64,000 bases of DNA from NCBI RefSeq assembly GCF_965363235.1, contig NC_134846.1:64097121-64161120 (forward strand), read 5' to 3'. This document shows, in pieces, positions 29,636 to 52,181 of this stretch. The stretch comes from Mytilus galloprovincialis (Eukaryota; Mollusca; Bivalvia; Mytilida; Mytilidae). The translations under genes were made by a program, and so were the position numbers. Below the pieces are notes generated by a model. It was not told the origin of the DNA. It did not search any database and saw only the letters and a program-made list of their open reading frames with translations. Each line of letters opens with the position of its first letter. Within the stretch, counting starts at the first letter, position 1.

Positions 29636-29782
29636 TGTGGGGTTCGTGTTGTTTATATTTCAGTTTTCTATGTTGTGAAGTGTGCTGTTGTTTGTTTGTC
29701 TTTTCATTTTAGCCATGGTGTTGTCAGTTTGTTTTAGATTTATGAGTTTGACTGTCCCTTTGGTATCTTTCGTCCCTCTTAA
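29636..29782 (+). repeat. Solo tail of the Penelope-like family
   Basis: GGGGTTCGTGTTGTTTATAT, TTCTATGTTGTGAAGTGTGC, TTTATGAGTTTGACTGTCCC and GGTATCTTTCGTCCCTCTT match the tail at 21640-21790. It lies exactly at the outer edge of the left arm of the inverted duplication. Confidence 0.75.
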
Positions 29783-29959
29783 CTGTTGAGCCAAAATCAC
29801 TTGTTTAAAGTGGGAATGGTCGTCTCTAAATGTCTTACAAGATCTTGTGTACATTTATTTTTATGAAAAATTTAGACCAGAATAATGTCGGTCTACCAGC
29901 CGTAGCTAGATAAATGGCCAAAATCACAGCTCCGACGATACTTTTATCTATCTTTTTTG

Positions 29960-30240
29960 CCTAACCTAGGTGCATTATGCTTTAAGGTCTATGCGTCCGT
30001 TCGTCCGTCCGTTCGTCCGTCGATATGTCCCGCTTCAGGTTATAGTTTTTGGTTAAAGATTTTGGGTAAGGTAGTTTTTGATGAAATTGAAATCCAATCA
30101 ACTTGAAACTTAGTACACATGTTCCCTATGATATGATCCCTCCAAATGAAAGTTTTACTTCGATTTCACGGTCCACTGAACATAGAAAATGATAGCGGAG
30201 TAAGTTGAGCATCTGTGTATTATGGACACATTCTTGTTTA
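29960..30240 (+). repeat. Copy of GTCCG / TTAAAGTTTTTGG interspersed repeat in left arm
   Basis: GTCTATGCGTCCGTTCGTCC, GTCCCGCTTCAGGTTATAG, ATCCAATCAACTTGAAACTT, CACGGTCCACTGAACATAG and GACACATTCTTGTTTATTTT. Its duplicates in the right arm are at about 49400-49680 and 53030-53310, so it was present before the duplication. Confidence 0.75.
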
Positions 30241-30709
30241 TTTTGGTTTTATTAGATAATTTAATCAAATTTTTATTTTGACATGTTTGGGATTCGTAGC
30301 TGACAATACGGAATGGGTTGGGCTAGTTGCTGAAAGTACGGTGATCTATAATTGCTTAGATCCACATTATTTAGAGTCCGTTGGATTAAATATTTCCTCA
30401 TTGTATATCTGAAACTGAATGCTTCATTTTGTAAAAATGAGCTATTAACTTAAATTTCATTTCACTTGCATTTAAAGAAAAATTTGGTTTGGTTTACAGA
30501 AAATATATAATCTAAATATTCGATCGTATAGTTAAGATATTTATGAAGACGTGTATTTTCGGTAGTAATGAAGATTCATCATGAATTTTGATGCAAAACA
30601 ACAGATTTCAAAAAGTTATCTGCAATCTGATGACAGTCACAGTTAATTCTCTTTGGAATACCAATCTATTTTCGGTATTTTATACCTCCAAAATCAAAGC
30701 AAGAAGCTT

Positions 30710-30931
30710 GATGCGACTGTCATACAAGTGAGAGGTTTAGCTAGCTATAAAACCAGGTTCAATCCACCATTTTCTACATTTGAAAATGCCTGTACCAAGT
30801 CAGGAATATGACAGTTCTTGTCCATTCGTTTTTGATGCGTTTTGTTATTTGATTTTGCCATGTGATTATGGACTTTCCGAATTGATTTTCCTCTGAGTTC
30901 AGTATTTTTGTGATTTTACTTTTTTTTTAGA
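30710..30931 (+). mobile_element. About 220-bp repeat inserted in left arm only
   Basis: Block from GCTTGATGCGACTGTCATAC through GAGAGGTTTAGCTAGC and TGCCTGTACCAAGTCAGG to a run ending ACTTTTTTTTTAG. In both right-arm copies the flanks are joined directly (CTATCTAATTTCTTGCTTTA at about 48928 and 52548), so they show an empty site. The family is a common bivalve short repeat with an oligo-T/A end. No clear target duplication. Confidence 0.75.
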
Positions 30932-31283
30932 TAGTTTGAATCTTTTCTTTGAATGTGTTATGCGTATGCTATGTTATTGAAAAGGGGAATTTAAAAAACT
31001 GCAACAGACACAGTAACATAGGATGATGAAGATTACACGAAAAGACATTTCAATAAAGGCATTTCTATATAATAATATTTTGAAGTATTGTAGCACAAAG
31101 TACACAGAAATCACAACTGTCCTTTAAAGGATCGTAACTTAGTTACTTATCCCGAACTTCAAATGAGTGACCAGCCAATATCGTTATTGACATAGACATT
31201 GTTGTTGGCGTAACAACATCTGCTTGTAAATATGCATGCATTTTCATGGCGTGAGTAACACACACAGTGATTCAGTAAACACA

Positions 31284-31289
31284 TTTATT
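31284..31289 (-). terminator. Polyadenylation signal of copy A
   Basis: AATAAA on the minus strand, 10 nt beyond the stop. The same signal follows copies B (48571-48576) and C (52191-52196). Confidence 0.7.
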
Positions 31290-31298
31290 GTATGTTCA

Positions 31299-34200
31299 TT
31301 ACTTGGTACAAACAACACAGCTAATCCTTGTATTCTGAACATACGGTGGACATTTTAAAGATCCACATTTAGCAATTGCTGGATAAATTAAATAACCATC
31401 TTCATTTCCAGCTCCAGCTTCAAGTACGTCTGGATTCTGGTCAATACAGATGAAAGAAGATGCACCATCGTGCCCGTGGTACCCTGCTACCAACATGCCA
31501 CTATATTCTTTTCGCCATCCAGTCAGGCAGGTTATTTTGCCAGGAATTATCACTTTGGAAGTAACATGATTCGCCCTACATACGGCACAAGGCACATCTT
31601 TATCATATAAACTACTACCAAAGTTGTCTTGATATTCCATGCCGTATACAGAAGTATAGAGGATGTTGTTAATAGTGTTTCCAATGTGTGGGTCGTGTGG
31701 AAGACAAACTGGTTCTGCTGCTCGTCCCTGTTCTGTATAGTGTCCACCCCCAGAAATTCCTAAAATGTATTTTCGAAGCAACATGAAATGCATTGGAATA
31801 CAAAGCGTGAGGATGTTTAAAACTCACGAAGACAAAATACCCCCCCCCCCCACACACACATAATATCATATAGCAATCTTCATTGATTCACCTAGCAAAA
31901 TTCATGCTAGACTTTAAAGGTTAAAAGTGTGGGTCCGGCGTCTTATCACCAGACCTTATTTCCACAAATGAATAGAACACATTACAATATTGCTGAATTT
32001 CCTGTGGAAGAAGCACGGAGAAGTAGGATGGTTGTAAAACTATAGTTTTTTCAACAGCTGAAAGGACAGTGTGAAATAATTGACTCTTTTGTAGATATTT
32101 TCAATTTTATGTTTTTATCAAATGACTTCAGACTTACAACTTGTAACTAGTATGCGTAGATTACTTCATCATGTTACCTAGATTAATAAAGGCAACAGTA
32201 GTATACCGCTGTTCTAAGTCTTAGTTCAGGTTTCATTTTTATTTATATAAAGACTGGCATTTCTTTTGTCAGTAACACAGCTTTTAAAACGAAAGGGTAC
32301 ATCTGAACGTAATAAGTGACAGAAGGTTAAGGTCAGAACATTACAGTGATGACTGATGCAATTGGTTCAGGTCGAGAACAAATGCATGAACAGTCAATGA
32401 AATCGATTGGTAAGTAGCGCACAATGGGTCGACAGGGGTGAAGAAAATGAAATTTGCACTGTTCTTTGGAAAGAAGAGTTTTTTAAACGTACAGAGGGAC
32501 TGCCGCCAGACCTCGCTGAAGTACACGTCCAATAATATTTTTCAGTAAAAAAATATAGAAAACATATTTTGGAATCATTGCCAAGCAATCTATCATTTTA
32601 TTAAACATGATGTAGCTCATTATCTCCCCATAGGTTCCATAACTTGCACGCTTTTTTAGGCAGTATAAGAGAAGTTATCTATCGCCAATATCCTAATGCC
32701 GAAATTGACTTTTTAAATCTAAAGATAATGTTTTTCACCTCTATTTTATTTCAACATACAAACAAGGAGATGCGATATGATTTTCAATGAGACAGCAATC
32801 CACCTAAGCACAAATAAATTGAATGTGAGTTATTATAAGCAACTGAACGACCATTAACAATAAGAAAAACTCGAACCGCAGGATTGGCTATAAATGCACC
32901 GACATGAAACATGTGGGTCAATTTAATTGAAAAAACTAGGCAGCCCAATTAAGCAACCTAATTGATAAAATAACAATTTACAAAAACAATACCAAAGTTG
33001 ATTTCCTATTTGATGACAAAAAAGTGTGAATTTGTAGCTGCAAAGTGAACAAATGGATTTTGATTAACTAATGTTTTGTACATTGTTAAAAAGTAAAATA
33101 ACACAAACACCAAACTCCAAGGAACATTCAACACGGAAATTCCCTAATCAAAATAGCAAAACCAAAAAGAACTAACACACCAAACAGATGAGGCAACTGT
33201 TATAGTCCCGATTTGGTAAATACATTTTCTTATGATAAAATCGTGGAATAAAGCTGGTTTTAAAAAATCTCTCCCTTGTATGACAGTCGCATAACATTCG
33301 ATTATATTGATAACGATGTGCGAATAAAACAAACAGAGTCGTAATTGGTAAAAAAGTCAAAAACAGGGGTACAACAGTCAAACATGTTGTAGTTTTAATG
33401 ACAATAAGTCAAACAAAAAGAATATGGCAACAAAGAAAAACAAAAATTGCATATAGGCAGAGCACATATGCAAAAGTGAAAGACAAGAATACAAAAAATG
33501 ACCCCAGCACACAGTTTTCCCTTTGAAGTTTCTAAATAAATTTCAAACACCTGGAAACACAATTTTCAGTTGTTAAAACTTTTCAGAAGTAGCATTTTAA
33601 ATTTTTGCAAAATTGTAACAATAGATAAAAAATGCATAAGAACCTGAGTAAACAAGATCGGTATCGTTCCCTGCACAGTCCTTCCTTCCCCATCTAGTAT
33701 ACACTACACCAGAAGGTGCTACAGAAAAGAAAAATATATGCATACAGTATTAAATTTTTATTATCTATATATGATAGCATTTGCTTATAGCACACACACA
33801 CTACGAAGGAAAATCTATCCGAAATTTCCTAACATATATTTTTTTATAATGATACTAGCAGGTGGCGCAGTTATGTTAACCATTGGTTCGAGCGATTTTG
33901 GTTCGATGAAATATAAGACATTGTACCAAAAATTAATTTTTGGTCACAAAGGGAATAGGATCTAGTCTGAAATATATCCCAAGCTATTTTATTGTGTATT
34001 GGAACAAATTAAATCATAACACTGTTCTTGCTCTGGACAGTGGTTCGAAATTTAAAGTTTAAAATCAATTAACGAATTGCTTCACCATTAATCCAATAGT
34101 GTCGACGTACGTGTAACCCTTTTATTTTCATTCATGGAAATGTTTGGGTTACGCCATTCAGCGCTTGTTCTACATAAGAAAGATAATCGAAAGTCGTTTA

Positions 34201-34572
34201 CATATAAAATACAAAATAGCACGCTATGCAATTCACAAAACAGTCCGTATGATTACAAATTGCTTGGTCATTGGTAAATCAAGACTGCAAAAGATTTCTG
34301 TATATGCTTAAAAAAGTTTCACACAAATTGTTAGCATTATGCAGCACTAAATTCAATAAGTTTACAGTACCTGTGACTGCGAATTTTTCGATCATTCGTG
34401 CTTGGTTTTGAATGGTTCCTTGCATTTGCTGTACAAGAGCTTTTAAATTTTGCACATCCTTATGTAATTGTTGGTTGTCTGCAAAGTCAGGATCAGTCAG
34501 AAGAATACGTTTTGAATTTTTCGCTGATGATCCATAAACGAGAATTGAAAAAAGGACAAGTAGCCTTGCCAT
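31299..34572 (-). CDS. Secreted short-chain collagen C4-like protein, copy A (complete, three exons)
   Basis: Coding exons on the minus strand 34572-34371, 33718-33644 and 31759-31299, all AG/GT with matching phases, 245 residues. Exon 1 encodes a signal peptide (MARLLVLFSILVYGSSA) and a short heptad-rich helix (HKDVQNLKALVQQMQGTIQN), a likely oligomerising coiled coil. Exon 2 encodes YTRWGRKDCAGNDTDLVYSG. Exon 3 encodes the rest of the C4-like domain: GGGHYTEQGRAAEPVCLPHD, VPCAVCRANH, IPGKITCLTGWRKEYSG, AGYHGH, FICIDQ, AKCGSLKCPPY and ISCVVCTK at the C-terminus. The many paired cysteines fit an extracellular domain. The family is annotated after sponge short-chain collagen C4 and is expanded in molluscs, but this protein has no Gly-X-Y repeat, so the collagen name describes homology only; its role is unknown. 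An AATAAA lies 10 bp after the stop (31289-31284). Confidence 0.88.
33140..33345 (-). repeat. Short interspersed repeat in intron 2 of copy A
   Basis: TTCCCTAATCAAAATAGCAA, TTTTCTTATGATAAAATCGT and CCTTGTATGACAGTCGC. The same block occurs in copies B (46540-46745) and C (50170-50350), and a diverged one at 59200-59400. Confidence 0.7.
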
Positions 34573-36939
34573 TATGACATATGGAATGATTCTTATCTTA
34601 TCATGGGCACATGTGAATAAATGTAATATGTTTATGATAATAATTCACGTTTTAAGAAGGCATGTGATGCCACTAAAACCACGGAAAAATATAGCTAGTA
34701 AACTGTTTCAACTTCAACTTTTTGAGAAACGTGTCATAAAGTTGTCACTTTCTGTTAGGCAGACAGCAGTACACGATTTCGTTAATTTTCTTTAAACGAC
34801 CAGAAAACATTTTAAGCTTTTACCGAACACACAATTAAAGTGCATTACATTAGAATCCTGATATAATATCTGTAATACCACGTATTACTAAGAAATATAA
34901 CATCCAATCTTTTAATTTTGAAAGAAAATGCCCTCCTCACTGTACTTTTTCGGAAATTTCATAAGTCGCTTGTAATAATTTTATTCTTTATATTTATTCT
35001 TTACCGATTTTTTAAGACACCAAAAATATTTTAGACCTCTGTTAAAATAAATATGATAAAAAATTCTGTAACAGTCATAAAGACGGATAACTAGATAACT
35101 AGAAATATTTATAGTTCAACATTAACTTGATGCCTACAATTATTAAATTGAAATATATCAGAACATCTTGTGTATTTTAAGAAGTCAATACAAAGTGGTG
35201 ACAATTTGGTGTCCAGTAGCATCATTTGAACTGTTAAGGAGGCTCGAGGGTATACTGTAAGCCACCCGAGAGCATCCTGTCCTATACTCGGTAGTTTACT
35301 TTAATAACACTTAAATACAGTGTGTGACTCATGTAGCAACTCTACATTTGTATTAAACTTCCCAAATTACTTGTCAGGTATGGTCTTCGGAATGTTTAAT
35401 ATGTATGTATTGAGCAATCCCTTGTATTCGAGTGTTACTGAGCTAATTTTGTTCCTAACGGCTTTCCATAGTTTTTATGTTTGAACGAGCGTCCTCCAAC
35501 ATCTAATGTTTTCATCAGTGTAAATTCATGTGCTTTTTGTATGTGTCCAAGTTCAATAAAATAAAGTTATCTTTCCAATGTTAACAGTTTTTATTTGTTC
35601 ACTGTTAAAAGTATGTAACATTATAACATCGTAAAACTATATAAATAAACAGTTGCGTTCAAGTGTACTGAATCATAAATCCTTAAATACATATTTGTGG
35701 TGTCCGACGTGGTGGGAGATAGCTTACTGTACAAAAGACGGCTAATTAAATATCATTAAACTTCATTATGTTATCCTTATTCTCACCTAAAGGTTATTGT
35801 TGCTTTATTTGTTTTTCAAGGTTTGAACTTGCCGCCAGCAAAACTTTGGGCTATCTGCCATTGCTGAGTGCTCGCGCGTTTATATACTAAATTGTAATTG
35901 TCACGTGACATACTAATCCAATGGAAACTTGTCCTTTCCGGGAAGCCGGAACTATAAAAATTTCAGATAATGAAAAACATGATATACATATCATCTTAAA
36001 ATGTCCGAACATTGTCCTTATATATAAAATATCAAAACAAAGCTATAGCATCTGAAATATCGACAAAGAAGCTTGAAATAAACAATCGGACACCACTGCG
36101 CGCGCATTGATTTAGCAGACGATCTGCGTAATTACATAATACGTAAATAACATACAACATAGTTCATTTCAACCATCTAAATATTTACAATATATTTGTG
36201 TCCGGCAGGGTATACTTATTAAAAATCTTATCTGTGGTATTAAAAATACAATATTAGATCAAATGTCCAGGGGACGAATTGGTATTTAAAGATATCAAAA
36301 CACATGTTTCGGTCCCCACAAAATGGCAGACGACAAAGTCTCCGTAAATAAACAATTCGATTGAAGTATTTTCCTATGTATATCAGGCATATTAGACGTT
36401 TAAATATGAATATTTGGTTACAAGAAATGATCCTTAATACGGGAATTACATGATATATAGCATGTAGAAGGTAAGCCATGAGTAATTACATACATTCCCT
36501 GCCGTAACACTTGTACAACAAAAAATGTAAACAAATGAAAAATTCATTTCACTTCCAGTGTTTTACGCATTAAAAATTTGTTATCCTTGATAATTGTCAA
36601 CATCATCTTGAACCTATATACAAACATGAACTAGAAATTCATATCATAGCTGATGAAATGCTTTCCCCCTTTATATTTGGTAAACAAAAAAAAAAAAACC
36701 AAAAAAATGAAACTTTGGCCTGTGAAATCCATACATAAAAATAGTAAATTAATGCCATATCTTTGATTAAAAAAAATGTTTTACTTGCTCGTGCGAGCCA
36801 AGTTACTATGCGTAAGAACACAACCGTTATGTTTAAAAGAATAATATTTCCTTTTTCTGAATTTATAATATCATACCAAGTACTTCCAATGCCTTACAAT
36901 ACAAATTAAATTACAGTTTTTCCTTATAATTTGTTGATT
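34573..36939. other. 5' flank of copy A and spacer of the inverted duplication, no gene seen
   Basis: To 35238 the sequence is shared with the right arm and should hold the promoter of copy A. Beyond that it is spacer, A/T-rich, without an exon I can support. CACGTGAC at about 35902 is a lone E-box. Confidence 0.55.
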
Positions 36940-37552
36940 GAAACCTCTTAACATATGGATGAAAAAAATGCAAAAAAAATAGGGGGTCACCGACCATCTA
37001 AGCGAGTTACCGAGTGCTAAAAAATAGGGTTTTCCCTCATAAATCGTACAATTTTTACAAAGACTAATAGGGGAAATTGCACCTCCATTACCTTAATCTT
37101 AAAGTACGGAGAGAACTAAATTACAGATTTGTATTATACTTTCCATTCTAAGAGAGTTGGTATTGAAGTACAGAAAAAGTGAAAAAAAATTGGGGGTCAC
37201 CGACCTTTTTTAAGAGAGATAGATCACAAAAAGTGTGAAACCATGGCAACCAAAAATGGTAATTTAAAAAAAAAATCAACTTTTCTTTCGTTTTTTTGGC
37301 TTTAACTATATAGAATTAAAATCTGTTTATGGTTAACAGTACACATGATTGATATGCAGGCCAACATCGAGTTTTTGGTCATTTGATAAATTCGTAAGGT
37401 CAAAGGTTAAGGCTATAAGGTACATAAAAATGCTAAATTTATGTTATTTTTGAAAGTTTTGATAAAACTTTAATGAGATCATTCGCTAAGTTAAATCTAA
37501 ATTACAGATTTGTATTATACTTTCCATTCTAAGAGAGTTGGTATTGAAGTAC

Positions 37553-37583
<31 letters not shown>

Positions 37584-37830
37584 AATGCGGGTCACCGACC
37601 TTTTAAGAGAGATAGATCACAGCTTTAACTATATTGTATGAAAATCTGTTTATGGTTAGCAGTTCACATGATTGATATGCAGGACAACATCGAGTTTTGG
37701 GTCGTTTGATAAATTCGTAAGGTCAGAAGTGAAGGCTATGAGTTGGTAATAAAATACAGAAAAAACCAAAGAAAAGGTGGGGTTCACCGACCTTTAAAGA
37801 GAAAGAGATCCTTCCAAACACCGAATATAC
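36940..37830 (+). repeat. Diverged tandem repeat with GGGGGTCACCGACC
   Basis: GGGTCACCGACC recurs near 36984, 37193, 37587 and 37785. A block of about 60 bp (AAATTACAGATTTGTATTAT ... GTATTGAAGTACAG) recurs at 37118 and 37500, and TCTGTTTATGGTTA plus ATGATTGATATGCAGG recurs at about 37323 and 37650. Units of about 330-390 bp, with a long oligo-A at 37562-37584. Confidence 0.75.
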
Positions 37831-38590
37831 TATCCTATTGCTTATAGTATCTAAGATATGGACCTAACCTTGTTCACTGATCCATGAAATATAGTTATCC
37901 TATTACTGATAATAAGATAGAATTTAACATTTACAAAAAATCTTAATTTTTTTTCAAGTAGTCACTGAACCATGAAAATGAGGTCAAGGACATATGACAT
38001 ATGACTGACGGAAACTTCATAACGTGAGACATTCATATACAAAGTATGAAGCATCCAGGACTTCCACCTCCTTAAATATAAAACGTTTCATGAGTTAGCT
38101 AATGCCGCTTCCTCCAGATCACTATCCCTATGTCGAGCGCAGGCTTGACAAAAATGATTCCTCCACTTTTCCTCCAAGTTTGATATGGAATAACTCTAAC
38201 CTCATTATAGTTCAATCAAAAAATAAAATAGGTGCATAATGTATTATGTCTCCTTGAAAACTTCGGGACTTGCATGTCACACTTTTTTTTGGTGGTTATC
38301 TGTTAAAGAGTTAATGGCTTAGATTAAGATGTTGTTTGTATCTGTCCCAAGTCAGGAGACATGTAGTTCAGTGTTTGTGGTATGTTGCTGTATATACAAT
38401 GACATGTATCTTTATTTTCATGTATTGCTCTGTACATAAATCAGGCCTCTGGTGATTATAAGTATCAATGGTCCAGGACGAATCTATATATATCATATCC
38501 TATCCACATTTGTGATAGGGCATAATGCAATATAATCTTTGTTTCTACATAAAATACAAATAAACAACTTGCAGTATAGGTGACATTTAT
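37831..38590. other. 3' flank of the transposase-exonuclease gene
   Basis: No exon. A diverged fragment at 38330-38440 (TGTCCCAAGTCAGGAGACATG) belongs to the TTCTCGTTTGAATT repeat family. TTTATT at 38602-38607 is a possible polyadenylation signal for the minus-strand gene that ends at 38821. Confidence 0.5.
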
Positions 38591-38820
38591 AATTATAACC
38601 ATTTATTTGTGGACATACTTATGGTCCCATACATTTACAGATCCATATACAATGTAACATTAAGTCCAAAATCAATTTATAAAATTCTGTGTATAAAGCA
38701 GGAGATTATACAAAAAATATTTACAGACAAGTCATGATTGGTGATGAAAATTACCAAAAAGGTTAGCTGAAAAGATATACATGTAATATATAAGTCAATA
38801 CAATTACAAAGAATTATCAA

Positions 38821-41800
38821 CTAGCTTTCAGGTGTAAGGAAGTCAAATATTTTGCGAATGACCTTCATGCAATTTGTGACTCGAACATTTCCTCTGTCAG
38901 TTTTTTCAGACAATAAAGCTTTTAATCCTTCTAGACCCATTCTCTCAATAGACAGTTTCAGATGAGAAAGCTTTAAGTTGGATTTTGATGCCTTCAAAGC
39001 AGTGGCTCGTGTAATTGCTTTACAAGCAATGGCTTCAATGTAAGACTTCAGATTGTCTTTCTGGACTATACAATCATAAGGATGACTTACAGGAAATACA
39101 AATGAATCCAGATTGTTTAAGGCTTTTGAGGTTAATAATTTAAACAATGCTCTAGTGTCATCAACTGCATTATGTGCACAATAGTTTTCACCGAGAAGAT
39201 GTGACACTAATGAAGTTTGAGAATATGATGGTAATCCTGGCATTATTTTCTTAAATAACTCCAGAGTGTCTACAAACCCACATACGTGAGATGAAAACTC
39301 ATTCCACATCTGATTTGCCTTTAAAGAATGATACAAAACATGGCAATCGAATCGTTTGATGTTGTGTCCTACTAGAACTGGCTTGGATGGATATTTGGAA
39401 AGAAATGTTATAAAATCAGTGAGAGCTTCATGCGGTAACTTGTATGAAACAGGTTGTAAATTATAAAACATCTGATTCGCAGAAACGGTAATTTTTGTTA
39501 TTTCGGAGGCCTGTATTGAGATAGGTTGGTTTGGAAAGATGTAACTGCTAAATTCATTATTGCTTGAAGTTGCAGCAATCTGTATAACATCTGATGTTCT
39601 ATCTGGAAGAAAAAATATTTAAAAAATCTCAATTTATACAAAATATGTCACCTGCTAATTCTATAGTTTAAGCAATTGACATATTAATCTTATCACCAAA
39701 ATGAACCGAAAATGAAAAGAAAAACAAAATTTTTTTTTCAGGATTTATTATTCTCATATTGCATTTACAGTATGCAATGTTCAATTTTCTTCAGTTTTTC
39801 AGTGAAGCCTCCTGTATGATATAGGTTATTTTCATTGTTGAAGTCTGTTTTCTTGCCTTTAATTGCCCACCAGTAGCGAATACAGAAATTTTTATAAGAG
39901 GGGGCCAGCTCCGGTCATGCTTCAGAGATTCCCTATATAATCAACCAAATTTTTCCAAGAAAAGGGGATGCCCAGGTCCTCTGGGCCTCCCCCCTAAATC
40001 CGCCTCTGCCTACTTTCATTTCATTTAAACTGCAGGTTGATAGAGTCTCAATGGCAATCGTACCACATCTCCTTTTTTCATATAGATAGTTTCAGAAATT
40101 TGTATGGTCAATTTTCCTGCTGTCATATATATATGTATGGTCAATTTTCCTGCTGTCATATATATATGTATGGTCAATTTTCCTGCTGTCATATATATAT
40201 ACATTTATCTTTTTACCCTTAATATTCAACTGAAATCATATAATAGTATTACTTCAAAAAGAAGAATAAAAATTAAGTTTGTTCAAGGTGCAATAACCAA
40301 TGTATATATACTATGTGTATAAACATGAAGTATGTTCATATAATTTATTATAAAACCCAATCAAATTCATTTTGTTTTTAATTTAAAATGTTAAACTTTT
40401 TTCATATTAAGGACTTACATAGGCTTGTAGTTTCTAAATCAAAGACTACCAGTGGAGCTGTAGAAATATCTATCGGTATACATAAAGATGCATTCCTTGG
40501 AGCGGGGATTTCTTCATCTAACTGCTCATTGTCCATTCCTATAGCACATTAAGTTTTGTAAAGACAAAATTGCAGATTTCAATTGTTATATACATGTATG
40601 GTATAAATGTGTTTGTACATAAGTAAATGCAATACCAAATGTTTAATGTATGTTCGATTGTATAACTTTGCATCAATTTAACATACAAATAAACAGGCTC
40701 TCCATTTAATAGATAATTGTATTGTATTTGAAGATCTTTACCTAATGGATAACTTTTTCCCAATGTCATGATTTGGTTTTTGAGATATACATTTGCAAGC
40801 CAAAATCTACATTTTATCCATATTTCTAGTTTAAGCCATGGCGACCATCTTGGTTAGCTGGCCGGGTCATTAAACACATATTTTTAACTAGATACCCCAA
40901 TGATTATTATGTCCAAGTTTGGTTGAATTTGACCCAGTAGTTTCAGAGGAGAAGATTTTTGTAAAAGTTAACAGACGATAAATGACGATGAAGAAAGATG
41001 ACGGACGCCAAATGCAAAGTGATGAGAAAAGCTCACTTGGCCCTTTAGGCAAGTTGAGCAAAAGATGAAATATCTTAAATAAAAACTGCGTGAGAAGAGC
41101 AATACATTAAGCCATTTTTATGAGGGCTAGGATAACATTTAAAAAAAGGGCAGGATAGAAGTTTTGATTAAAGAAAATGCAATGAGATTTACCTATTTCA
41201 CTTTCATAAGTTCTTCCTTCTCTTATTTCAACTCCGGTACTTTTCACTGATCTTTCTTTTTTTAGATTGATTCTTCTTTTTTGTGCTGCTTTGTTTTGGC
41301 TCTTTCGGATTTTTATCCCTCTTTCCATTCAATCGTATAGCACTCTTGATAGTCTCATTCCCTGGTGACAATCCAGCTGCTTCACTTACTTTAAAATATA
41401 AATAAAAAAACAAAATGTATAAATAAGATATGAGTATCGTCTTAACAATAATTTAAGAATTGACTCTTTCTTTTTGTTTAAAAATTTTACTTTGATGTAA
41501 AAGCATTGATCAAGGCACATGTTCTATTTAGTTAGGTTTGTTGTCTGTTTAACACATGCCCCATTTCAATTCTAAATTTTATTTCTTAAAATAACAGTTC
41601 ACCTTTGAAATATACTGGTTGTATATAGTGAGATAACAGATTTCCCTTAACTTGTTTTTAAACATTAGGGAGCCATTATTGAATTTCAGTTGGGGGAGGG
41701 GGTATGTTGTGGGATTAACATTTTTTTTCCGCACAAAGTTATTTCATTGAGTCTGTGATGTGAATAATCATTTTTTCTTCTTCTTCAAAATTAAAAACTA

Positions 41801-43194
41801 TCAAGGGAAAATCTGGATTCTGAATATTTTTTCGTCATATGCTTGAACAGTATATTTTTTTTCATCAATATACATTGGAATAACTTTTTTATGGAAAAAA
41901 AAACCAGTGTAATTTGCAAATATTTAATATTACCTTTGACACATAACCATATCCCTCATTCTTTTGTAATACTGCGGCACTGACACGATAATTTAAACTG
42001 GAAGAGCCTGAATAATGTTTATTTTTTGCTGTTTTGGTTGAGACCGTATGGTTAAAGCTCTCATTTGCTTGGGAACTGGCAAGTTTTGATAGTTTCTTTG
42101 ATTGGCTCTCTATTTTTCCCAGAAACAATTTCTCCAGATCAGCTTTTAGACTTTCAGATTTCAAGTCCTTTCCGAATGGTAAATTTGTGTGCCTGTATGA
42201 CGCTCTGTCTTTTAAAATTCCACACCATTTTATATCACAGTTTTCGTGTTTCCCACAATCGTAACTACTCGGCCATTCTCGCTACGCAGTACAATAACCT
42301 CGTATGCACTACGGAGAAATTCTTCTTAAATTGTTGGCCGGAATTGTAGTAATCCGCGACACAAAGAAGTTCTATCCTCCAGGTGGCGCTATAATTTGGT
42401 TACATATCACAGTAATCAAGAACTTTAACTCTGCCAAATATTTTGGCGCGAAAGAAGGAGCAAAGTAAATAAGTAATGGTAAAAAATTTGTACCATTCCA
42501 GTCGAAAAAATATAAAATTCAATCGGATCGGAAAATTTTCCGGACAGGAGCAAGTTAAATCAGTAGTGGTAAAAAAAATGTACCAGTCCAGTCGAAAAAA
42601 TATAATTTTGAATCGAATCGGAAAATTTTCCGGACAATGATTCCTCCGCCTAATGCATACGAGGTTATTTCTTCGTGCAACCAGAAAGGCCGAGTTGTTC
42701 CGATTGGTGTTTCCCATACATATGATCGATCATGCCTCTGACTCCTTTTTCTATCTTTTCTGGAGAACCTTGATTTTGTGCCAACATGTAGGAATAGTTT
42801 TTGGTAATTGCATTAATTACCATTGGTGTCAACTCTTTTTGTCTTGGTTTAAGACTGTAAAGCTTTTTAGTGACATTTATGATGATATGATTTCTGTCGC
42901 TTGTTTTTACCATTTTAGAATTTGGTAGTAGTTTCTTTGCCCTGTCAAACCCAACTGAATCATCATCACCTGCCAGTTCATTTATATCGATATTTTGTTC
43001 ATGTACATCCTTCACCAACTGAACTACCATGTCTGGTTCCATGCCCTTTGCTGTCCCCGACCAGTTTTTCTTACAGTTGTGGGGTAAAGATGGTCCTCCC
43101 TTCTTTTGTGCATTCCGACATACACGGCAACCAGATATTCTGACGGTGTGATGCACAATTTTCCCTGTTTTTTCCCCTATCAGTGAGGCCACAC
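38821..43194 (-). CDS. Mutator-like transposase domain fused to DEDDh 3'-5' exonuclease (5'-incomplete, interrupted copy)
   Basis: Minus-strand exons: 43194-41934 (split by a 451-bp insertion), about 41390-41193, 40538-40419 and 39602-38821, about 630 residues once the insertion is set aside. The first exon matches the metazoan Mutator-like transposase domain: ISGCRVCRNAQKKGGPSLPH, NWSGTAKGMEPDMV, AGDDDSVGFDRAKK, KTSDRNHIIINVTKKLY, KWCGILKDRASYRHTNLPFG and SSQANESFNHTVSTK. A lysine-rich linker follows (KAAQKRRINLKKERSVKSTG). Exons 3-4 carry a full exonuclease active site: VVFDLETTSL (Exo I, D and E), GHNIKRFDCHVLY (Exo II, D) and CAHNAVDDTRALF (Exo III, H and D), plus a helical tail of about 95 residues. 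Splice phases join exon 2 to 3 and 3 to 4 in frame. Signs of decay: no N-terminal exon in the 1.5 kb upstream, one frame change inside exon 2 near 41310, a poor acceptor at exon 2, and the insertion. The exonuclease half is open throughout and may still be used. Confidence 0.7.
39871..40008. mobile_element. Small hAT-like MITE in intron
   Basis: Ends CAGTAGCGAATACAG (39871) and, on the other strand, CAGAGGCGGATTTAG (40008) are imperfect inverted repeats of hAT type. 138 bp, rich in GGGG/CCCC. No convincing 8-bp target duplication. Confidence 0.5.
40102..40200. repeat. 33-bp tandem repeat, three units
   Basis: GTATGGTCAATTTTCCTGCT begins units at 40102, 40135 and 40168; each unit ends in an ATATAT run. 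Intronic. The period is a multiple of three, so it keeps a chance reading frame open, but there is no evidence of coding. Confidence 0.9.
40835..41068 (-). repeat. GCTCACCTGGCC-family element in intron
   Basis: Runs from TGGCGACCATCTTGG through CCAAGTTTGGTTGAATTTGA and a GATGACGGACGCCAAATG end to AAAGCTCACTTGGCCCTTTA. Common bivalve non-autonomous element; a fragment in the opposite orientation is at 29115-29180. Confidence 0.75.
42246..42716. mobile_element. Mutator-type MITE (451 bp) inserted in the transposase exon, 10-bp target duplication
   Basis: The element spans 42256-42706. Its ends are inverted repeats of about 55-60 bp: CAATCGTAACTACTCGGCC from the left and CAATCGGAACAACTCGGCC from the right, both continuing to AATAACCTCGTATGCA. 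It is flanked by GTGTTTCCCA on both sides (42246-42255 and 42707-42716). A 10-bp duplication and long inverted repeats point to the Mutator superfamily (9-10 bp). Taking out the element and one copy of the duplication leaves HMYGKH followed directly by ENCDIKWCG in frame. The interior has two direct units of about 110 bp sharing CCAGTCGAAAAAATATAA and CGGAAAATTTTCCGGACA. Confidence 0.88.
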
Positions 43195-43539
43195 CTGAAA
43201 AGTGAAATGCATATGTTAATGCAAATAAGTGTAAATATGTAGTTATCATGTTGCTATACTACTCATTTAAAATGATGGTTTAATAATTCTTATGTGGTTT
43301 GCATATCTATAAATACTTGACTTGGATAAGTCAATTCAAATTTTTCTCTTGGTTTAAAATTAGATAAACCATGTTTCCGAAACTCATTTCATAATCTGTT
43401 CATACATGATACACATGCTTGCAGGGATCCTATGATTTTCAGCAAATTGAGATTGAATAACAAATAATAACAAGAAGTTATTGTAACAGGATGCTGTTAC
43501 GAAGTCTCCCAAACAAGGCTCCCATAATTCGCCATTTCC
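43195..43539. other. Sequence upstream of the transposase exon
   Basis: The acceptor TTTTCAG lies at 43201-43195. I looked for the missing N-terminal exon of the transposase here and found none. Confidence 0.5.
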
Positions 43540-44060
43540 ATGGTCCCATATTTTATTAGATTTGTTTAATTATCCCATACAAAAATATATAAGGTTTTGA
43601 GGTGGGGATCTCTACTATTTACAAGTTTTCAAACAGAAAGTTGTGGGGTGACCCCATATACTCCCCCTATTTTTTTTATCGTCCCATACAAGAATAAAAA
43701 TGGTTTAGTGTGGGAATCTCAACCGTTTACAAGTTCTCAAACAAGAGGGGGTGGGTGACCCCTAAGGACTTCCCTTTTCTTTCATTTGATTTGTTTTATT
43801 GTCCCATACAAGAATATACATGGTTAAAGGGTGGGGATCTGAACTGTTTACAAGTTCTCAAACAAGAGGGGGTGCGCGTTACCCCAGGGACTTCCCTTTT
43901 ATTTCATTTGATTTGTTTAATTGTCCCATACAAGAATATATATGGTGTAGGAGTGGGGATCTGGACCGTTTACATGTTCTCAAACAAGAGGGGGTAAGGG
44001 GTGACCCCCAGGAACTTCCCTTTCATTTCATTTGATTTGTTTAATTCAAGAATATATATG
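43540..44060 (+). repeat. Minisatellite, about 120-bp units
   Basis: Four to five units; GTCCCATACAAGAATA recurs at 43681, 43801 and 43923 with an older unit near 43572. Each unit has GTTTACAAGTTCTCAAACAA, GAGGGGGT and a run of C or G, then TTTCATTTGATTTGTTT. Confidence 0.9.
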
Positions 44061-44709
44061 ATTTTGCAAAAAAAGTTGTGTACAAAAATGAATATAAGTT
44101 TCGCCGCGATAAATAAATGATCCGTACTATCAGCCGGTAAAAAATGAATATTCTATCAGCAAGAAATCTCCATCACACTGAAAACCAAATGGTTAAATAA
44201 TGCTGTCGAATTTAATCATGATTTGAACGGAGCAATTTTTGAGTTTATGTCATATAAACAGGAAAATAACTTAATTCATATTATTATTATAATCATATTT
44301 ATTCAATAAAAGTAACTTCTGTAAAAATTCACAATAAAGTCCACGTTCTTGTAATCTTGTTACACTTAACCCAAACAAGTCCTGCATTGAATATCGACTG
44401 CATGTTGTTACAACCTGTTTTACACTACATGTAAACATGGTATCAATGTGAACGCAATTTAAGTTTTAGTGTAGAGTACATTTACAACACACCGAGTTTA
44501 GCTCAATGTGAACACCGCCTAACATAATGAAATATTGCTGTCAGAAAGCGCTTTGATCAGAAAAAAGGAGGCATTTTTTTTTTATTATTTGACGTAGGTA
44601 TTAGTACTGTGATACTCAAAAACTGAGATTGCTTAGTTTAGTACATTCATACATTATGCTTTAACTGAAAGGGGAAATGAAGGGAGATTGATATGTTTCA
44701 ACAACGACT
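44061..44709. other. Spacer, no gene seen
   Basis: A/T-rich, no exon supported. Ends at the inner boundary of the right arm of the inverted duplication (about 44710). Confidence 0.5.
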
Positions 44710-45381
44710 TAAGAGTTCAAATGATGCTACTGGACACCAAATTGTCACCACTTTGTATTGACTTCTTAAAATACACAAGATGTTCTGATATATTTCGATT
44801 TAATAATTGTAGGCATCAAGTTAATGTTGAACTATAAATATTTCTAGTTATCTAGTTATCCGTCTTTATGACTGTTACAGAATTTTTTATCATATTTATT
44901 TTAACAGAGGTCTAAAATATTTTTGGTGTCTTAAAAAATCGGTAAAGAATAAATATAAAGAATAAAATTATTACAAGCGACTTATGAAATTTCCGAAAAA
45001 GTACAGTGAGGAGGGCATTTTCTTTCAAAATTAAAAGATTGGATGTTATATTTCTTAGTAATACGTGGTATTACAGATATTATATCAGGATTCTAATGTA
45101 ATGCAGTCGGTCATTTTAATTGTGTGTTCAGTAAAAGCTTCAAATGTTTGCTGGTCGTTTAAAGAAAATAAACGAAATCGTGTACTGCTGTCTGCCTAAC
45201 AGAAAGTGACAACTTTATGACACGTTTCTCAAAAAGTTGAAGTTGAAACAGTTTACTAGCTATATTTTTCCGTGGTTTTAGTGGCATCACATGCCTTCTT
45301 AAAACGTGAATTAATATCATAAACATATTACATTTATTCGCATTTGCCCATGATAAGATAAGAATCATTCCATATGTCATA

Positions 45382-48300
45382 ATGGCAAAGCTACTTGTCC
45401 TTTTTCAATTCTCGTTTATGGATCATCAGCGAAAAATTCAAAACGTATTCTTCTGACTGATCCTGACTTTGCAGACAACCAACAATTACATAAGGATGTG
45501 CAAAATTTAAAAGCTCTTGTACAGCAAATGCAAGGAACCATTCAAAACCAAGCACGAATGATCGAAAAATTCGCAGTCACAGGTACTGTAAACTTATTGA
45601 ATTTAGTGCTGCATAATGCTAACAATTTGTGTGAAACTTTTTAAAGCATATACAGAAATTTTTTGCAGTCTTGATTTACTAATGACCAAGCAATTTGTTA
45701 TCATACGGACTGTTTTGTGAATTGCATAGCGTGCTATTTTGTAATTTATATGTAAACGACTTTTGATTATCTTTCTTATGTACAACACGCGCTGAATGGA
45801 CTAACCCAAACATTTCCATAAATGAAAATAAAAGGGTTACACGTACGTCGACACTATTGGATTAATAGTGATGCAATTCGTTAATTGATTTTAAATTTTA
45901 AATTTCAAACGAGTGTCAAGAGCAAGAACAGTGTTAATTAATTTTTGGTACAATGTCTTATATTTCATCGAACCAAAATCGCCCGAACCAATGGTTAACA
46001 TAACTGCGCCACCTGCTAGTATCATTATAAAAAAATATATGTTAGGAAATTTCGGATAGATTTTCCTTCGTAGTGTGTGTGTGCTATAAGCAAATGCTAT
46101 CATATATAGATAAAAAAAATTATTATTATATGCCTATACTTTCCTTTTCTGTAGCACCTTCTGTTGTAGTGTATATTAGATGGGGAAGGAAGGACTGTGC
46201 AGGGAACGATACCGATCTTGTTTACTCAGGTTCTTATGCATTTTTTATCTATTGTTACATTTTTGCAAAAATTTAAAATGCTACTTCTTAAAAGTTTTAA
46301 CAACGGAAAATTGTGTTTCCCGGTGTTTGAAATTTATTTAGAAACTTCAAAGGGAAAACTGTGCGCTGGGGTCATTTTTTGTATCTTGTCTTTCACTTTT
46401 GCATAAGTGCTCTTCCTATATGCAATTTTTGTTTTTCTTTGTTGCCATATTCTTTTTGTTTGTGTTTTATTGTAATTAAAACTACAACATTTTTTGACTG
46501 TTGTACCCCTGTTTTTGACTTTTTTACCAATTACGACTCTGTTTGTTTTATTCGCACATCGTTATCAATATAATGGAATGTTATGCGACTGTCATACAAG
46601 GGATAGATTTTTTAAAACCAGCTTTATTCCACGATTTTATCATAAGGAAATGTATTTACCAAATCGGGAATATAACCGTTGCTTCGTCTGTTTGGTGTGT
46701 TAGTTCTTTTTGGTTTTGCCATTTTGATTAGGGACTTTCCGTTTTGAATGTTCCTTGGAGTTTGGTATTTGTGTTATTTTACTTTTTAACAATGTACAAA
46801 ACATTAGTTAATCAAAATCCATTTATTCACTTTTCGGCTACAAATTCACACTTTTTTGTCATCAAATAGGAAATCAACTTTGGTATTGTTTTTGTAAATT
46901 GTTATTCTATCAATTAGGTTGCTAGTTTGGGCTGGCTAGTTTTTTCAATTGAATTGTATCACATGTTTAATGTCGGTGCATTAATAGCCAATCCTACGGT
47001 TCGAGTTTTTTTTTATTGTTAATGGTCGTTCTGTTGCTTATAATAACTCACATTCACTTTATTTGTGCTTAGGTGGATTGCTGTCTCATTAAAAAATCAT
47101 ATCGCATATCCTTATTTGTATGTTGAAATAAAATGGAAGTGAAAAACGTTATCTTTAGATTTAAAAAGTCACCTTCGACATTAGGATATTGGCGATAGAT
47201 AACTTCTCTTATACTGCTTAAAAAAGCGTGCAAGTTATGGAACCTATGGGGAAATAATGAGCTACATCATGTTTAATAAAATGATAGATAGCTTGGCAAT
47301 GATTCCAAAATATGTTTTCTATAATTTTTTACTGAAAAAAATGTTATTAGAGGTGTACTTCAGCGAGGTCTGGCGGCAGTCCCTCTGTACGTTTAAAAAA
47401 CAAAAAACAGTGCAAATTTCATTTTTTTAGCCCTGTGAACCCATTTTGTGCTACTTACCAATCAATTTGATTGATTGTTCATTTGTTCTCGACCTGAACC
47501 AATTGCATCAGTCATCACTGTAATGTTCTGACCTTAACCTTCTGTCACTTATTACGTTCAGATGTACCCTTTCGTTTTAAAAGCTGTGTCACTGACGAAA
47601 GAAATGCCAGTCTTTATATAAATAAAAATGAAACCTGAACTCAAACTTAGATCAGCGTTATACTACTGTTGCCTTTATTAATCTAGGTAACATGATGAAG
47701 TAATCTACGCATACTAGTTACAAGTTGTAAGTCTGAAGTCATTTGATAAAAACATAAAATTGAAAATATCTACAAAAGAGTCAATTATTTCACACTGTCC
47801 TTTCAGCTGTTAAAAAAACTATAGTTTTACAACCATCCTACTTCTTTGTGCTTCTTCCACAAGAAATTCAGCAATATTGTAATGTCTTCTATTCATTTGT
47901 GGAAATAAGATCTGGCGATAAGACGCCGGATCCGCACTTTTAACTTTTAAAGTCTGGCATGATTTTTGCTATGTAAATCAATGAAGATCGCTATATGATA
48001 TTATGGGGGAGGGGGCATTTTGTAAGATCTTAGCGAGTTTTAAACATGCTCACGCTTTGCATTCCAATGCATTTCATGTTGCTTCGAAAATACATTTTAG
48101 GAATTTCTGGGGGTGGACACTATTCAGAACAGGGACGCGCAGCAGAACCAATTTGTCTTCCACACGACCCACACATTGGAAACACTATTAACAACAACCT
48201 CTATACTTCTGTATACGGCTTGGAATATCAAGAAAACTTAGGTAGTAGTTTATATGATACAGATGTGCCTTGTGCCGTGTGTATGGCGAATCATATTACC

Positions 48301-48561
48301 TCCAAAGTGATAATTCCTGGCAAAATAACTTACCTGGCTGGATGGCGAAAAGAATATAGTGGCATGTTGGTAGCAAGGTATCACGGGCACGTTGGTGCAT
48401 CTTCTTTCATCTGTATTGACCAGCATCCAGACGTACTTGAAGCTGGGGCTGGAAATGAAGATGGTTATTTCATTTATCCAGCGATCGCTAAATGTGGATC
48501 TTTAAAATGTCCACCGTATGTTCAGAATACAAGGATTAGCTGTGTTGTTTGCACCAAGTAA
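45382..48561 (+). pseudogene. Short-chain collagen C4-like gene, copy B (frame problem in exon 1)
   Basis: Exons correspond one to one with copy A: 45382-45582, 46155-46229 and 48101-48561. Exon 1 starts ATGGCAAAGCTACTTGTCC, but the T run that follows is one base shorter than in copy A, so the frame leaves the signal peptide after about eight residues and meets a stop; the downstream exon 1 sequence is otherwise intact. Exons 2 and 3 are open: PSVVVYIRWGRKDCAGNDTD, then GGGHYSEQGRAAEPICLPHD to ISCVVCTK. Exon 3 has lost a cysteine kept in copies A and D (ITCLTGW in A, ITYLAGW here) and changes AGYHGH to ARYHGH, which fits relaxed selection. A homopolymer error in the assembly is the alternative for the exon 1 change. 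AATAAA at 48571-48576. Confidence 0.8.
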
Positions 48562-49399
48562 TGAATATACAATAAATGTTTTTAATGAAACACTTTGTGT
48601 GTTACTCAAGCCATGAAAATGCATGCATATTTACAAGCAGATTTGTTACGCCAACAACAATTTCTATGTCTATGTCAATAACGATATTGGCTGGTCACTC
48701 ATTTGAAGTCTGGATAAGTAACTAAGTTACGATCCTTTGAAGGACAGTTGTGATTTCTGTGTGGTTTGTACTACAATATTTCAAATTATTATTATATAGA
48801 AATGACTTTTTTGAAATGTCTTTTCGTGTAATCTTCATCATCCTATTTACTGTGTCTGTTGCTGTCTGTTTAATTCCCCCTTTCAATAATATAGCATACG
48901 CATAACACATTCAAAGAAAAGATTCAAACTATCTAATTTCTTGCTTTAATTTTGGAGATATAACATACCGAAAATAGACTGGTTTTCCAAAGAGAATTGA
49001 CTGTGACTGTCATCAGATTGTAGATAACTTTTTGAACTCTATTGTTTTGAATCAAAATTCATGATAAAACTTCATTACTCCCGAAAATACACGTCTTCAT
49101 AAATATCTTAACTATACGATCGAATATTTAGATTATATATTTTCTGTAAACCCACCAGATTTTTCTTTAAATGCAGGTGAAATGAAATTTTAGTCCATTA
49201 GCTCATTTTTACAAAATGAAGCATTCAGTTTCAGATATACAATGAGGTAATATCAAATCCAACGACTCTAAATAATGTGGATCTAAGCAATTATAGATCA
49301 CTGTACTTTCAGCAACTAGCCCGATCCATACCGTATTGTCAGCTACGAATCCCAATCATGTCAAAATAAAAATTTAATAAAATTATAATAAAACAAAAA

Positions 49400-49680
49400 A
49401 AAAAACAAGAATGTGTCCATAATACACGGATGCTCCACTGACTCAGCTATCATTTTCTATGTTCAGTGGACCATGAAATCAGGGTCAAAACTCTCATTTG
49501 GAGGGATCATATCATAGGGAACATGTGTACTAAGTTTCAAGATGATTGGATTTCAATTTCATCAAAAACTACCTTACCCAAAAACTTTAACCAAAAACTA
49601 TAACCTGAAGCGGGACAGATTGACGGATGAACGGACGGACGAACGGACGCACAGACCTAAAAACATAATGCACATAGGTT
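49400..49680 (-). repeat. GTCCG / TTAAAGTTTTTGG family copy in right arm, unit 1
   Basis: Reverse-oriented copy of the repeat at 29960-30240: AAGAATGTGTCCATAATACA, CTATGTTCAGTGGACC and ACTTTAACCAAAAACTATAA, with an ACGGACGGACGAACGG run at 49628-49648. Unit 2 holds the same block at 53030-53310. Confidence 0.75.
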
Positions 49681-51720
49681 AGGCAAAAAAGATAGATAAA
49701 AGTATCGTCGGAGCTGGAGTTTGGCCATTTATTTAGCTACGGCTGGTAGACCGACATTATTCTGGTCTAAATTTTCCATAAAAATAAATGTACACAAGAT
49801 CTTGTAAGACATTGAGACAACGATTACCACTTGTTTACTCAGGTTCTTATGCATTTTTTTTTTATCTATTGTTACATTTTTGCAAAAAATTAAAATGCTA
49901 CTTCTGAAAAGTTTTAACAACTGAAAATTGTGTTTCTCGGTGTTTGAAATTTATTTTGAAACTTCAAAGGGAAAACTATGTCCTGGGGTCATTTTTTGTA
50001 TTCTTGTCTTTCACTTTTGCATATGTGCTCTTCCTATATGCAATTTTTGTTTTTCTTTGTTGCCATATTCGTTTTGTTTGTTTTTTATTGTAATTAAAAC
50101 TACAACATTTTTTGACTGTTGTAACCCTGTTTTTGACTTTTTTACCAATTACGACTCTGTTTGTTTCATTCGCACATCGTTATCAATATAATGGAATGTT
50201 ATGCGACTGTCATACAAGGGATAGATTTTTTTAAAAACCAGCTTTATTCCACAATTTTATCATAAGGAAATGTATTTACCAAATCGGGAATATAACCGTT
50301 GCTTCGTCTGTTTGGTGTGTTAGTTCTTTTTGGTTTTGCCATTTTGATTAGGGACTTTCCGTTTTGAATGTTCCTTGGAGTTTGGTATTTGTGTTATTTT
50401 ACTTTTTAACAATGTACAAAACATTAGTTAATCAAAATCCATTTGTTCACTTTTCGGCTACAAATTCACACTTTTTTGTCATCAAATAGGAAATCAACTT
50501 TGGTATTGTTTTTGTAAATTGTTATTCTATCAATTAGGTTGCTAGTTTGGGCTGGCTAGTTTTTTCAATTGAATTGTATCACATGTTTAATGTCGGTGCA
50601 TTAATAGCCAATCCTACGGTTCGAGTTTTTTTTTATTGTTAATGGTCGTTCTGTTGCTTATAATAACTCACATTCACTTTATTTGTGCTTAGGTGGATTG
50701 CTGTCTCATTAAAAAATCATATCGCATATCCTTATTTGTATGTTGAAATAAAATGGAAGTGAAAAACGTTATCTTTAGATTTAAAAAGTCACCTTCGACA
50801 TTAGGATATTGGCGATAGATAACTTCTCTTATACTGCTTAAAAAAGCGTGCAAGTTATGGAACCTATGGGGAAATAATGAGCTACATCATGTTTAATAAA
50901 ATGATAGATAGCTTGGCAATGATTCCAAAATATGTTTTCTATAATTTTTTACTGAAAAAAATGTTATTAGAGGTGTACTTCAGCGAGGTCTGGCGGCAGT
51001 CCCTCTGTACGTTTAAAAACCAAAAAACAGTGCAAATTTCATTTTTTTAGCCCTGTGAACCCATTTTGTGCTACTTACCAATCAATTTGATTGATTGTTC
51101 ATTTGTTCTCGACCTGAACCAATTGCATCAGTCATCACTGTAATGTTCTGACCTTAACCTTCTGTCACTTATTACGTTCAGATGTACCCTTTCGTTTTAA
51201 AAGCTGTGTCACTGACGAAAGAAATGCCAGTCTTTATATAAATAAAAATGAAACCTGAACTCAAACTTAGATCAGCGTTATACTACTGTTGCCTTTATTA
51301 ATCTAGGTAACATGATGAAGTAATCTACGCATACTAGTTACAAGTTGTAAGTCTGAAGTCATTTGATAAAAACATAAAATTGAAAATATCTACAAAAGAG
51401 TCAATTATTTCACACTGTCCTTTCAGCTGTTAAAAAAACTATAGTTTTACAACCATCCTACTTCTTTGTGCTTCTTCCACAAGAAATTCAGCAATATTGT
51501 AATGTCTTCTATTCATTTGTGGAAATAAGATCTGGCGATAAGACGCCGGATCCGCACTTTTAACTTTTAAAGTCTGGCATGATTTTTGCTATGTAAATCA
51601 ATGAAGATCGCTATATGATATTATGGGGGAGGGGGCATTTTGTAAGATCTTAGCGAGTTTTAAACATGCTCACGCTTTGCATTCCAATGCATTTCATGTT
51701 GCTTCGAAAATACATTTTAG

Positions 51721-52181
51721 GAATTTCTGGGGGTGGACACTATTCAGAACAGGGACGCGCAGCAGAACCAATTTGTCTTCCACACGACCCACACATTGGA
51801 AACACTATTAACAACAACCTCTATACTTCTGTATACGGCTTGGAATATCAAGAAAACTTAGGTAGTAGTTTATATGATACAGATGTGCCTTGTACCGTGT
51901 GTATGGCGAATCATATTACCTCCAAAGTGATAATTCCTGGCAAAATAACTTACCTGGCTGGATGGCGAAAAGAATATAGTGGCATGTTGGTAGCAAGGTA
52001 TCACGGGCACGTTGGTGCATCTTCTTTCATCTGTATTGACCAGCATCCAGACGTACTTGAAGCTGGGGCTGGAAATGAAGATGGTTATTTCATTTATCCA
52101 GCGATCGCTAAATGTGGATCTTTAAAATGTCCACCGTATGTTCAGAATACAAGGATTAGCTGTGTTGTTTGCACCAAGTAA
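51721..52181 (+). pseudogene. Short-chain collagen C4-like exon 3, copy C (orphan exon)
   Basis: Copy of exon 3 in the second tandem unit, identical in protein to copy B exon 3 except DVPCTVC for DVPCAVC. Acceptor, stop and AATAAA (52191-52196) are kept. Unit 2 starts inside exon 2, so it has no exon 1 or complete exon 2 of its own. It could only be expressed by splicing from the exons of copy B, as an alternative last exon, or from an unrelated upstream start. Confidence 0.8.

Follow-up and report, generated by a model that had tools for sequence, protein, structure and literature searches.

A Mytilus galloprovincialis locus that very probably derives from a KolobokD transposon, and the PML_C-bearing exonucleases of its family

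Introduction

Kolobok DNA transposons are recognised by TTAA duplications, 5'-RR/YY-3' termini and a C/DxxH motif, which is followed by a zinc finger that precedes the last E (Kojima & Bao 2022, Mob DNA 13:24, PMC9587614). The group named KolobokD in that paper additionally encodes a DEDDh (DnaQ) exonuclease that resembles exuperantia and TREX, and its hosts are molluscs, arthropods and cnidarians. KolobokD is one of the groups for which a CCHC finger is given downstream of the first D, and its nuclease was suggested there to digest DNA intermediates starting at their 3' end. KolobokE, KolobokH, KolobokP and Kol0 are also Kolobok transposases with accessory proteins, which are however a lambda-exonuclease-like nuclease, a RecQ helicase, a His-Me nuclease or KolX and not a DEDDh exonuclease (PMC9587614). 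In the literature searched, the names KolobokD, KolobokP and KolobokE were found in Kojima & Bao 2022 only.

Related exonucleases are also known without a transposase, among them one of fish that is related to the human leukaemia protein PML. The structures 9mrc, which is zebrafish Plex9.1 according to a preprint on PML (PMC12934764), 9mrd, 9l85 and 9l8b comprise chains of 189-196 aa that consist of the exonuclease only. Exuperantia and the C-terminal PXL domain of PML-I share with the KolobokD proteins analysed here an EXO domain combined with a SAM-like or PML_C part; both are called pseudonucleases (PMC12934764), whereas KolobokD keeps the active-site residues. The SAM-like part is, according to that preprint, reported from no nuclease except Exu and PML, a difference from TREX1 and TREX2.

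Results and discussion

Organisation of the locus

The window is a stretch of 64,000 nucleotides from M. galloprovincialis (C9:64097121-64161120). An earlier note had described positions 38821-43194 as a Mutator-like transposase joined through phase-compatible exons to a complete DEDDh exonuclease. The motifs lie inside that span, but the element reaches further, with its 3' terminus at 35234. The following features could be assigned; C12 denotes the copy that is closest to the one in the window.

29778-35238, no strand assigned: flank outside the element, left arm of an inverted duplication of about 5 kb, ending at the element's 3' TTAA
35234-35254, minus strand: 3' terminal inverted repeat (TIR) starting with TTAA, TTAAGGAGGCTCGAGGGTATA on the plus strand, without mismatch to the TIR pattern
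35255-36898, no strand assigned: insertion of about 1.64 kb, absent from the C12 copy
36899-38820, minus strand: non-coding 3' region of the element containing short tandem repeats; its long pieces match C12 at 88-92% identity
38821-39602, minus strand: exonuclease exon 2 with the remaining DEDDh domain, the PML_C domain and the stop codon (open frame; Pfam)
40419-40538, minus strand: exonuclease exon 1 with the DLE motif; the same segment is contiguous in both one-frame copies described below
41193-41390, minus strand: linker exon from transposase to exonuclease, borders inferred, frame broken relative to C12
41934-42255, minus strand: second part of the transposase core with a zinc finger (HENCDIKWC) and the last catalytic Glu (SSQANESF), from open reading frame and copy comparison
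42256-42706, no strand assigned: 451-bp MITE interrupting the transposase exon, its terminal inverted repeats imperfect; neither the C12 nor the C6 copy has it
42707-43195, minus strand: first part of the transposase core with the CCHC zinc finger, AGDDDS (second catalytic Asp) and DxxH (SDRNH), PF20700 at 2.7e-39, motifs read
43471-44708, no strand assigned: stretch upstream of the core exon without alignment to C12
44708-49832, no strand assigned: flank outside the element, inverted right arm of the duplication of about 5 kb

In the exonuclease half, the exons 40538-40419 (DLE) and 39602-38821 (KRFD, HNAVDD) together carry the DEDDh motifs named before, and the joined translation matches RNase_T (4.4e-16), PML_C (1.2e-12) and Exu_RNase_H_like (3.1e-11) in Pfam. 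The exonuclease exon is 96% identical to that of the C12 copy and still open. In an alignment of 12 exonucleases of the family D125, H183 and D188 are invariant, and the DLE motif is seen in all three rows that include the DLE exon. The window exon folded alone gave a pLDDT of 34.9 and this prediction was discarded; when the last 93 residues were compared with the PDB, no credible match resulted (best E 0.43).

The transposase half is damaged, as had been noticed before. Its match to the Pfam family PF20700 ('Mutator-like transposase', 2.7e-39) covers only profile positions 173-348 of 357. AGDDDS and SSQANESF are present, but in two parts of one exon that is split by the 451-bp MITE, on both sides of which the 10-bp sequence TGGGAAACAC is directly repeated (42246-42255 and 42707-42716). 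For this MITE 344 candidates were found in the genome; the best 40 were scored, the window copy included, and all are 98-100% identical over about 450 bp. The linker exon, which is open in C12, has lost its frame by two single-base deletions, and phase-compatible exons were not confirmed for the window copy. For the exon with the first Asp (DTCWQKKGSG in C3 and C12) there is no credible match in the window, and neither a 5' TIR nor the N-terminal exon that C12 and C3 possess was found at the window copy. Lacking a 5' end and the first-Asp exon, and with a split transposase exon and a broken linker, the window copy cannot make the fused protein. Judged from its sequence it is a relic, from which no working transposase would be possible.

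In its first 21 bases the 3' TIR is identical to the 3' terminus of C12, which is a complete copy. Behind them lies the insertion of about 1.64 kb, the first 49 bases or so of which recur elsewhere, often paired 9.3-9.5 kb apart. As the pair spacing is also found from 7.7 to 16 kb, the insertion can only tentatively be called a possible solo LTR. Two neighbouring open reading frames in the arms of the duplication gave nothing above the cut-off in Pfam.

A repeated family with fixed order and strand

The 1.38-Gb genome (331 contigs) was searched with one exon from each half. At least 148 exonuclease and at least 150 transposase matches were listed, the best candidates being scored, and were merged to 140 and 141 loci, respectively; a search with the N-terminal exon listed at least 150 matches. 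In 89 of the 140 listed exonuclease loci a transposase core in the same orientation precedes the exonuclease by no more than 12 kb, with a median spacing between the queried exons of 3.1 kb (range 0.4 to 9.2 kb). Among the same 140 loci no core was found on the opposite strand and only one pair is in the wrong order. If the N-terminal exon is counted as well, 103 of the 140 are preceded by at least one transposase exon (core or N-terminal) in the same orientation, and none of the 140 has an N-terminal exon within 15 kb that is downstream or oppositely oriented. No scored transposase exon is found near the other listed exonuclease loci (37/140), and for 53 of the 141 listed transposase loci no exonuclease was scored downstream. 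Among these 53 is the C6 transposase copy, which is very close to C12 and has no scored exonuclease within 12 kb. Chance adjacency of the two halves was considered and is ruled out by these genome-wide counts of order and strand.

At two loci the transposase core and the exonuclease are even encoded in one open frame, of 675 and 685 aa. These carry PF20700 at positions 142-357 and 145-357 of 357, in addition to Exu/RNase_T and PML_C. Since the PF20700 match begins only at 142 or 145, the N-terminal part sits in a separate exon. A search of a one-frame copy against NCBIfam gave only matches to polymerase exonucleases, all of them below the cut-off. One further one-frame candidate of 557 aa was noticed at C7:66.81 Mb.

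As far as can be judged from genomic sequence, the fused transposase-exonuclease is a real repeated family. What matters here is that in some copies the core transposase and the exonuclease share one frame.

Dispersed copies and their termini

Five copies on four chromosome-sized contigs were compared, with the C3 copy as reference. The longest alignments to C3 are 99.35, 99.56, 99.60 and 99.46% identical, and one further 1-kb piece is 97.35% identical. The 5' end of this family lies at TTAAGGGGGCTCACGGGTTTAAA in all five copies, each with different flanks. Its 3' end (reverse complement TTAAGGTGGCTGGGGGGTATAAA) was found in three of the five, namely the C5 copy and two C1 copies; the C3 copy is cut off and the C13 copy is divergent before that point. 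The C12 copy, which is closest to the window copy, is complete and spans 13,909 bp from TTAA to TTAA, with the ends TTAAGGGGGCTCGCGGGTTTAAA and TTAAGGAGGCTCGAGGGTATAAA. The ends of the element are imperfect inverted repeats beginning with TTAA. In a subfamily that is about 40% identical the 5' start is likewise at TTAA in 3/3 copies, followed by CG. The terminal bases are GG...CC in the C3 family and in C12, while the 5' terminus of the 40% subfamily reads CG; two of the three families examined follow the terminal RR rule. From what is known of Kolobok, TTAA is probably the target site duplication and not part of the repeat.

Further sequence features of Kolobok and KolobokD are present. The C/DxxH motif reads SDRNH in the window and DIKH and DMGH in the one-frame copies. 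By eye, a Cys/His run that closes with WC, such as HENCDIKWC of the window, corresponds to the zinc finger before the last Glu, and the CCHC finger is represented by CRVC...HNC in the window and by CRIC...HNC and CRTC...HDC in the one-frame copies. RNase_T and Exu_RNase_H_like are matched by 12 of 12 exonucleases of the family at E up to 0.01. What is shared with KolobokD as published (PMC9587614) is thus the Kolobok transposase, the CCHC finger downstream of the first Asp, the DEDDh exonuclease and a molluscan host; the differences are that the window copy is truncated and interrupted, and that the exonucleases tested here carry PML_C. According to the earlier note no standard Mutator element is known to carry its own 3'-5' exonuclease, but KolobokD was named in 2022 and this kind of element is therefore already known.

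Selection on the two halves

Ratios of dN/dS, the determination of which for each half had been proposed before, were calculated for 11 exonuclease pairs, six of them close, and for nine transposase pairs, of which five were close and evaluable. The pairs share members and are hence not independent. In the close pairs the values are below 1 for both halves. For the exonuclease they are 0.16, 0.14, 0.24, 0.06 and 0.20 in five of six, i.e. within 0.06-0.24; the sixth pair (0.78) differs by one synonymous and three nonsynonymous changes. Another exonuclease pair with a dS of 1.37 gives 0.20, and four are saturated. The transposase values are 0.12, 0.13, 0.16 and 0.12 in four of five (0.12-0.16), and the fifth (0.93) comes from one synonymous and four nonsynonymous changes. 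Of the remaining transposase pairs one lacks synonymous changes, another with a dS of 2.6 has a ratio of 0.12, and two are saturated. The window copy itself, compared to C12, shows 0.16 in the exonuclease exon and 0.12 in the part of the transposase core. Both halves thus look as if they had been kept by selection within the family.

Alternative explanations

The target site duplication of MULEs is 8-11 bp long. By eye, no direct repeat of that length was seen beside TTAA in four two-ended copies. A Mutator (MULE) element with a captured nuclease would agree with the name of PF20700, but TTAA at both ends as well as DxxH and two zinc fingers, as given for Kolobok (PMC9587614), speak against it, and we regard this explanation as extremely improbable. 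The Mutator identity was dropped on the TTAA termini; because of these ends, the DxxH motif and the zinc fingers the family is assigned to Kolobok, and the Pfam name is misleading. Of the earlier proposal of a mobile element with a TREX- or PML-exon-9-like nuclease the repeated fused family and the likeness to PML exon 9 are retained, whereas Mutator has to be replaced by Kolobok.

The other part of that proposal was a host gene that took up a transposase domain; with the nuclease retained, this would be domestication at the window locus. The open exonuclease exon and its dN/dS of 0.16 against C12 would fit, but the similar value of the transposase core (0.12) is to be expected if the element was under selection while it was active. 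Many dispersed copies, the TIR at 35234, the missing first-Asp exon, the MITE in a coding exon and the broken linker are hard to reconcile with a host gene, and for a locus that is multi-copy, TIR-bearing and decayed this explanation is unfit and very unlikely. Equally slim are the prospects of two separate neighbouring genes without a fused protein. The distances of 0.4 to 9.2 kb between the queried exons in the 89 listed paired loci and the frameshifted linker of the window could be read in this way, but not the one-frame copies of 675 and 685 aa, the order and strand fixed throughout the genome and the open linker exon of C12.

The window locus is, with very high probability, a copy of a KolobokD DNA transposon that has decayed and lost its 5' part. 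The assignment follows the published description of KolobokD.

Proposed function in fuller copies

Fuller copies would encode one product, in which the transposase core (DDD/E, C/DxxH class) is joined to the C-terminal DEDDh 3'-5' exonuclease with PML_C; separate N-terminal exons precede them. Judging from family membership, the transposase half would recognise the TIRs and cut at the TTAA ends, and the tethered exonuclease may trim 3' DNA ends arising in transposition. Its targets would most likely be donor-flank ends or by-products and not the element's own 3' ends, since the latter would have to be protected by the transpososome. Complete copies bounded by TTAA allow tests of the function of a transposase-tethered 3'-5' exonuclease.

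Relationship to Plex9 and PML

PML_C is found in 12 of 12 KolobokD exonucleases tested at E up to 0.01 (best 4e-21). A profile of the same 12 exonucleases matches the PDB entries 9l8b, 9l85, 9mrd and 9mrc, which are labelled exodeoxyribonuclease III, with 142-174 bits. Exuperantia reaches about 51 bits with this profile and the PolC exonuclease 35, while TREX1 and TREX2, which share the DEDDh fold, stay at 33 bits or below. In the opposite direction three segments of zebrafish Plex9.1 and its PDB relatives were tried and matched all 12 KolobokD members with 64-118 bits and 33-44% identity over about 155 aa. In a comparison with the PDB the Plex9.1 segment gave at most 19.3 bits for TREX1 and 14.6 for Exu, versus 64-91 bits for the 12 KolobokD proteins. 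As the solved Plex9 chains consist of the exonuclease only, this link does not include PML_C.

New here are PML_C on the KolobokD exonucleases and their closeness to Plex9.1. Words starting with 'PML' are absent from the main text of the Kolobok paper (PMC9587614) and words starting with 'transpos' from the PML preprint (PMC12934764), where 'retrotransposon' would escape that check. No paper in the literature searched combines promyelocytic leukemia with Kolobok; an earlier mention in the main Plex9 paper is possible.

Plex9.1 is far nearer to the KolobokD exonuclease than to any solved TREX1, and Plex9 and PML exon 9 may therefore share its ancestry. It is conceivable, though a little short of probable, that vertebrate Plex9 and PML exon 9, perhaps together with insect Exuperantia, obtained their exonuclease by domestication from a KolobokD transposon, and that this module subsequently decayed into the RNA-binding PXL domain found in PML-I. 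If so, the accessory nuclease of a transposon was turned into a host nuclease module. The KolobokD nuclease is a concrete candidate, open to testing, for the origin of the exonuclease domain in Plex9 and PML.

A small exonuclease tree was rooted with distant sequences from viral contigs, a scan of which had given four matches of 26-29% identity; three of them served as outgroups. In the first tree a 91-residue TREX1 fragment is placed beside Plex9 with a support of 40 and on a very long branch. The fragment was removed from the second tree because it is too short. There Plex9 is nested within KolobokD next to the subfamily of the one-frame copies (SH-aLRT 89, bootstrap 64), yet a tree with a monophyletic KolobokD is not rejected (AU p 0.33). 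Close kinship is thus supported, and either direction of descent is compatible with it.

Duplications and insertions around the KolobokD copy

The decayed KolobokD copy, which lies on the minus strand, is flanked on both sides by an inverted duplication of about 5 kb, whose arms (29778-35238 and 44708-49832) are 92.7-96.9% identical in the long alignments. The left arm terminates at the 3' TTAA of the element. The right arm sets in 1.2 kb past the final stretch aligning to C12, the closest complete KolobokD copy, and its first bases are CTTAA. A rearrangement initiated at a transposase cut is one putative reading of this sequence arrangement. Through a direct tandem duplication of 3.6 kb (46217-49832 and 49830-53450, 98.8% identity), part of the arm is present three times; a Pfam search with the ORF 48037-48561 inside it returned no match.

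The transposase exon of the element is split by a MITE (42256-42706), which is bordered by a 10-bp direct repeat. All 40 candidates that were scored, out of 344 in the genome and with this copy among them, are 98-100% identical to this MITE, which appears young and is possibly a non-autonomous MULE. The insertion adjoining the 3' TIR of the element (35255-36898) may be a solo LTR; its first approximately 49 bases, the sole part searched, were found elsewhere as pairs, mostly 9.3-9.5 kb apart.

The start of the window (1-11871) is a dense array of repeated blocks, with direct copies about 71-97% identical. Matches to these blocks likewise occur inside C3, a KolobokD copy of another family on another large contig, at its positions 5216-6137.
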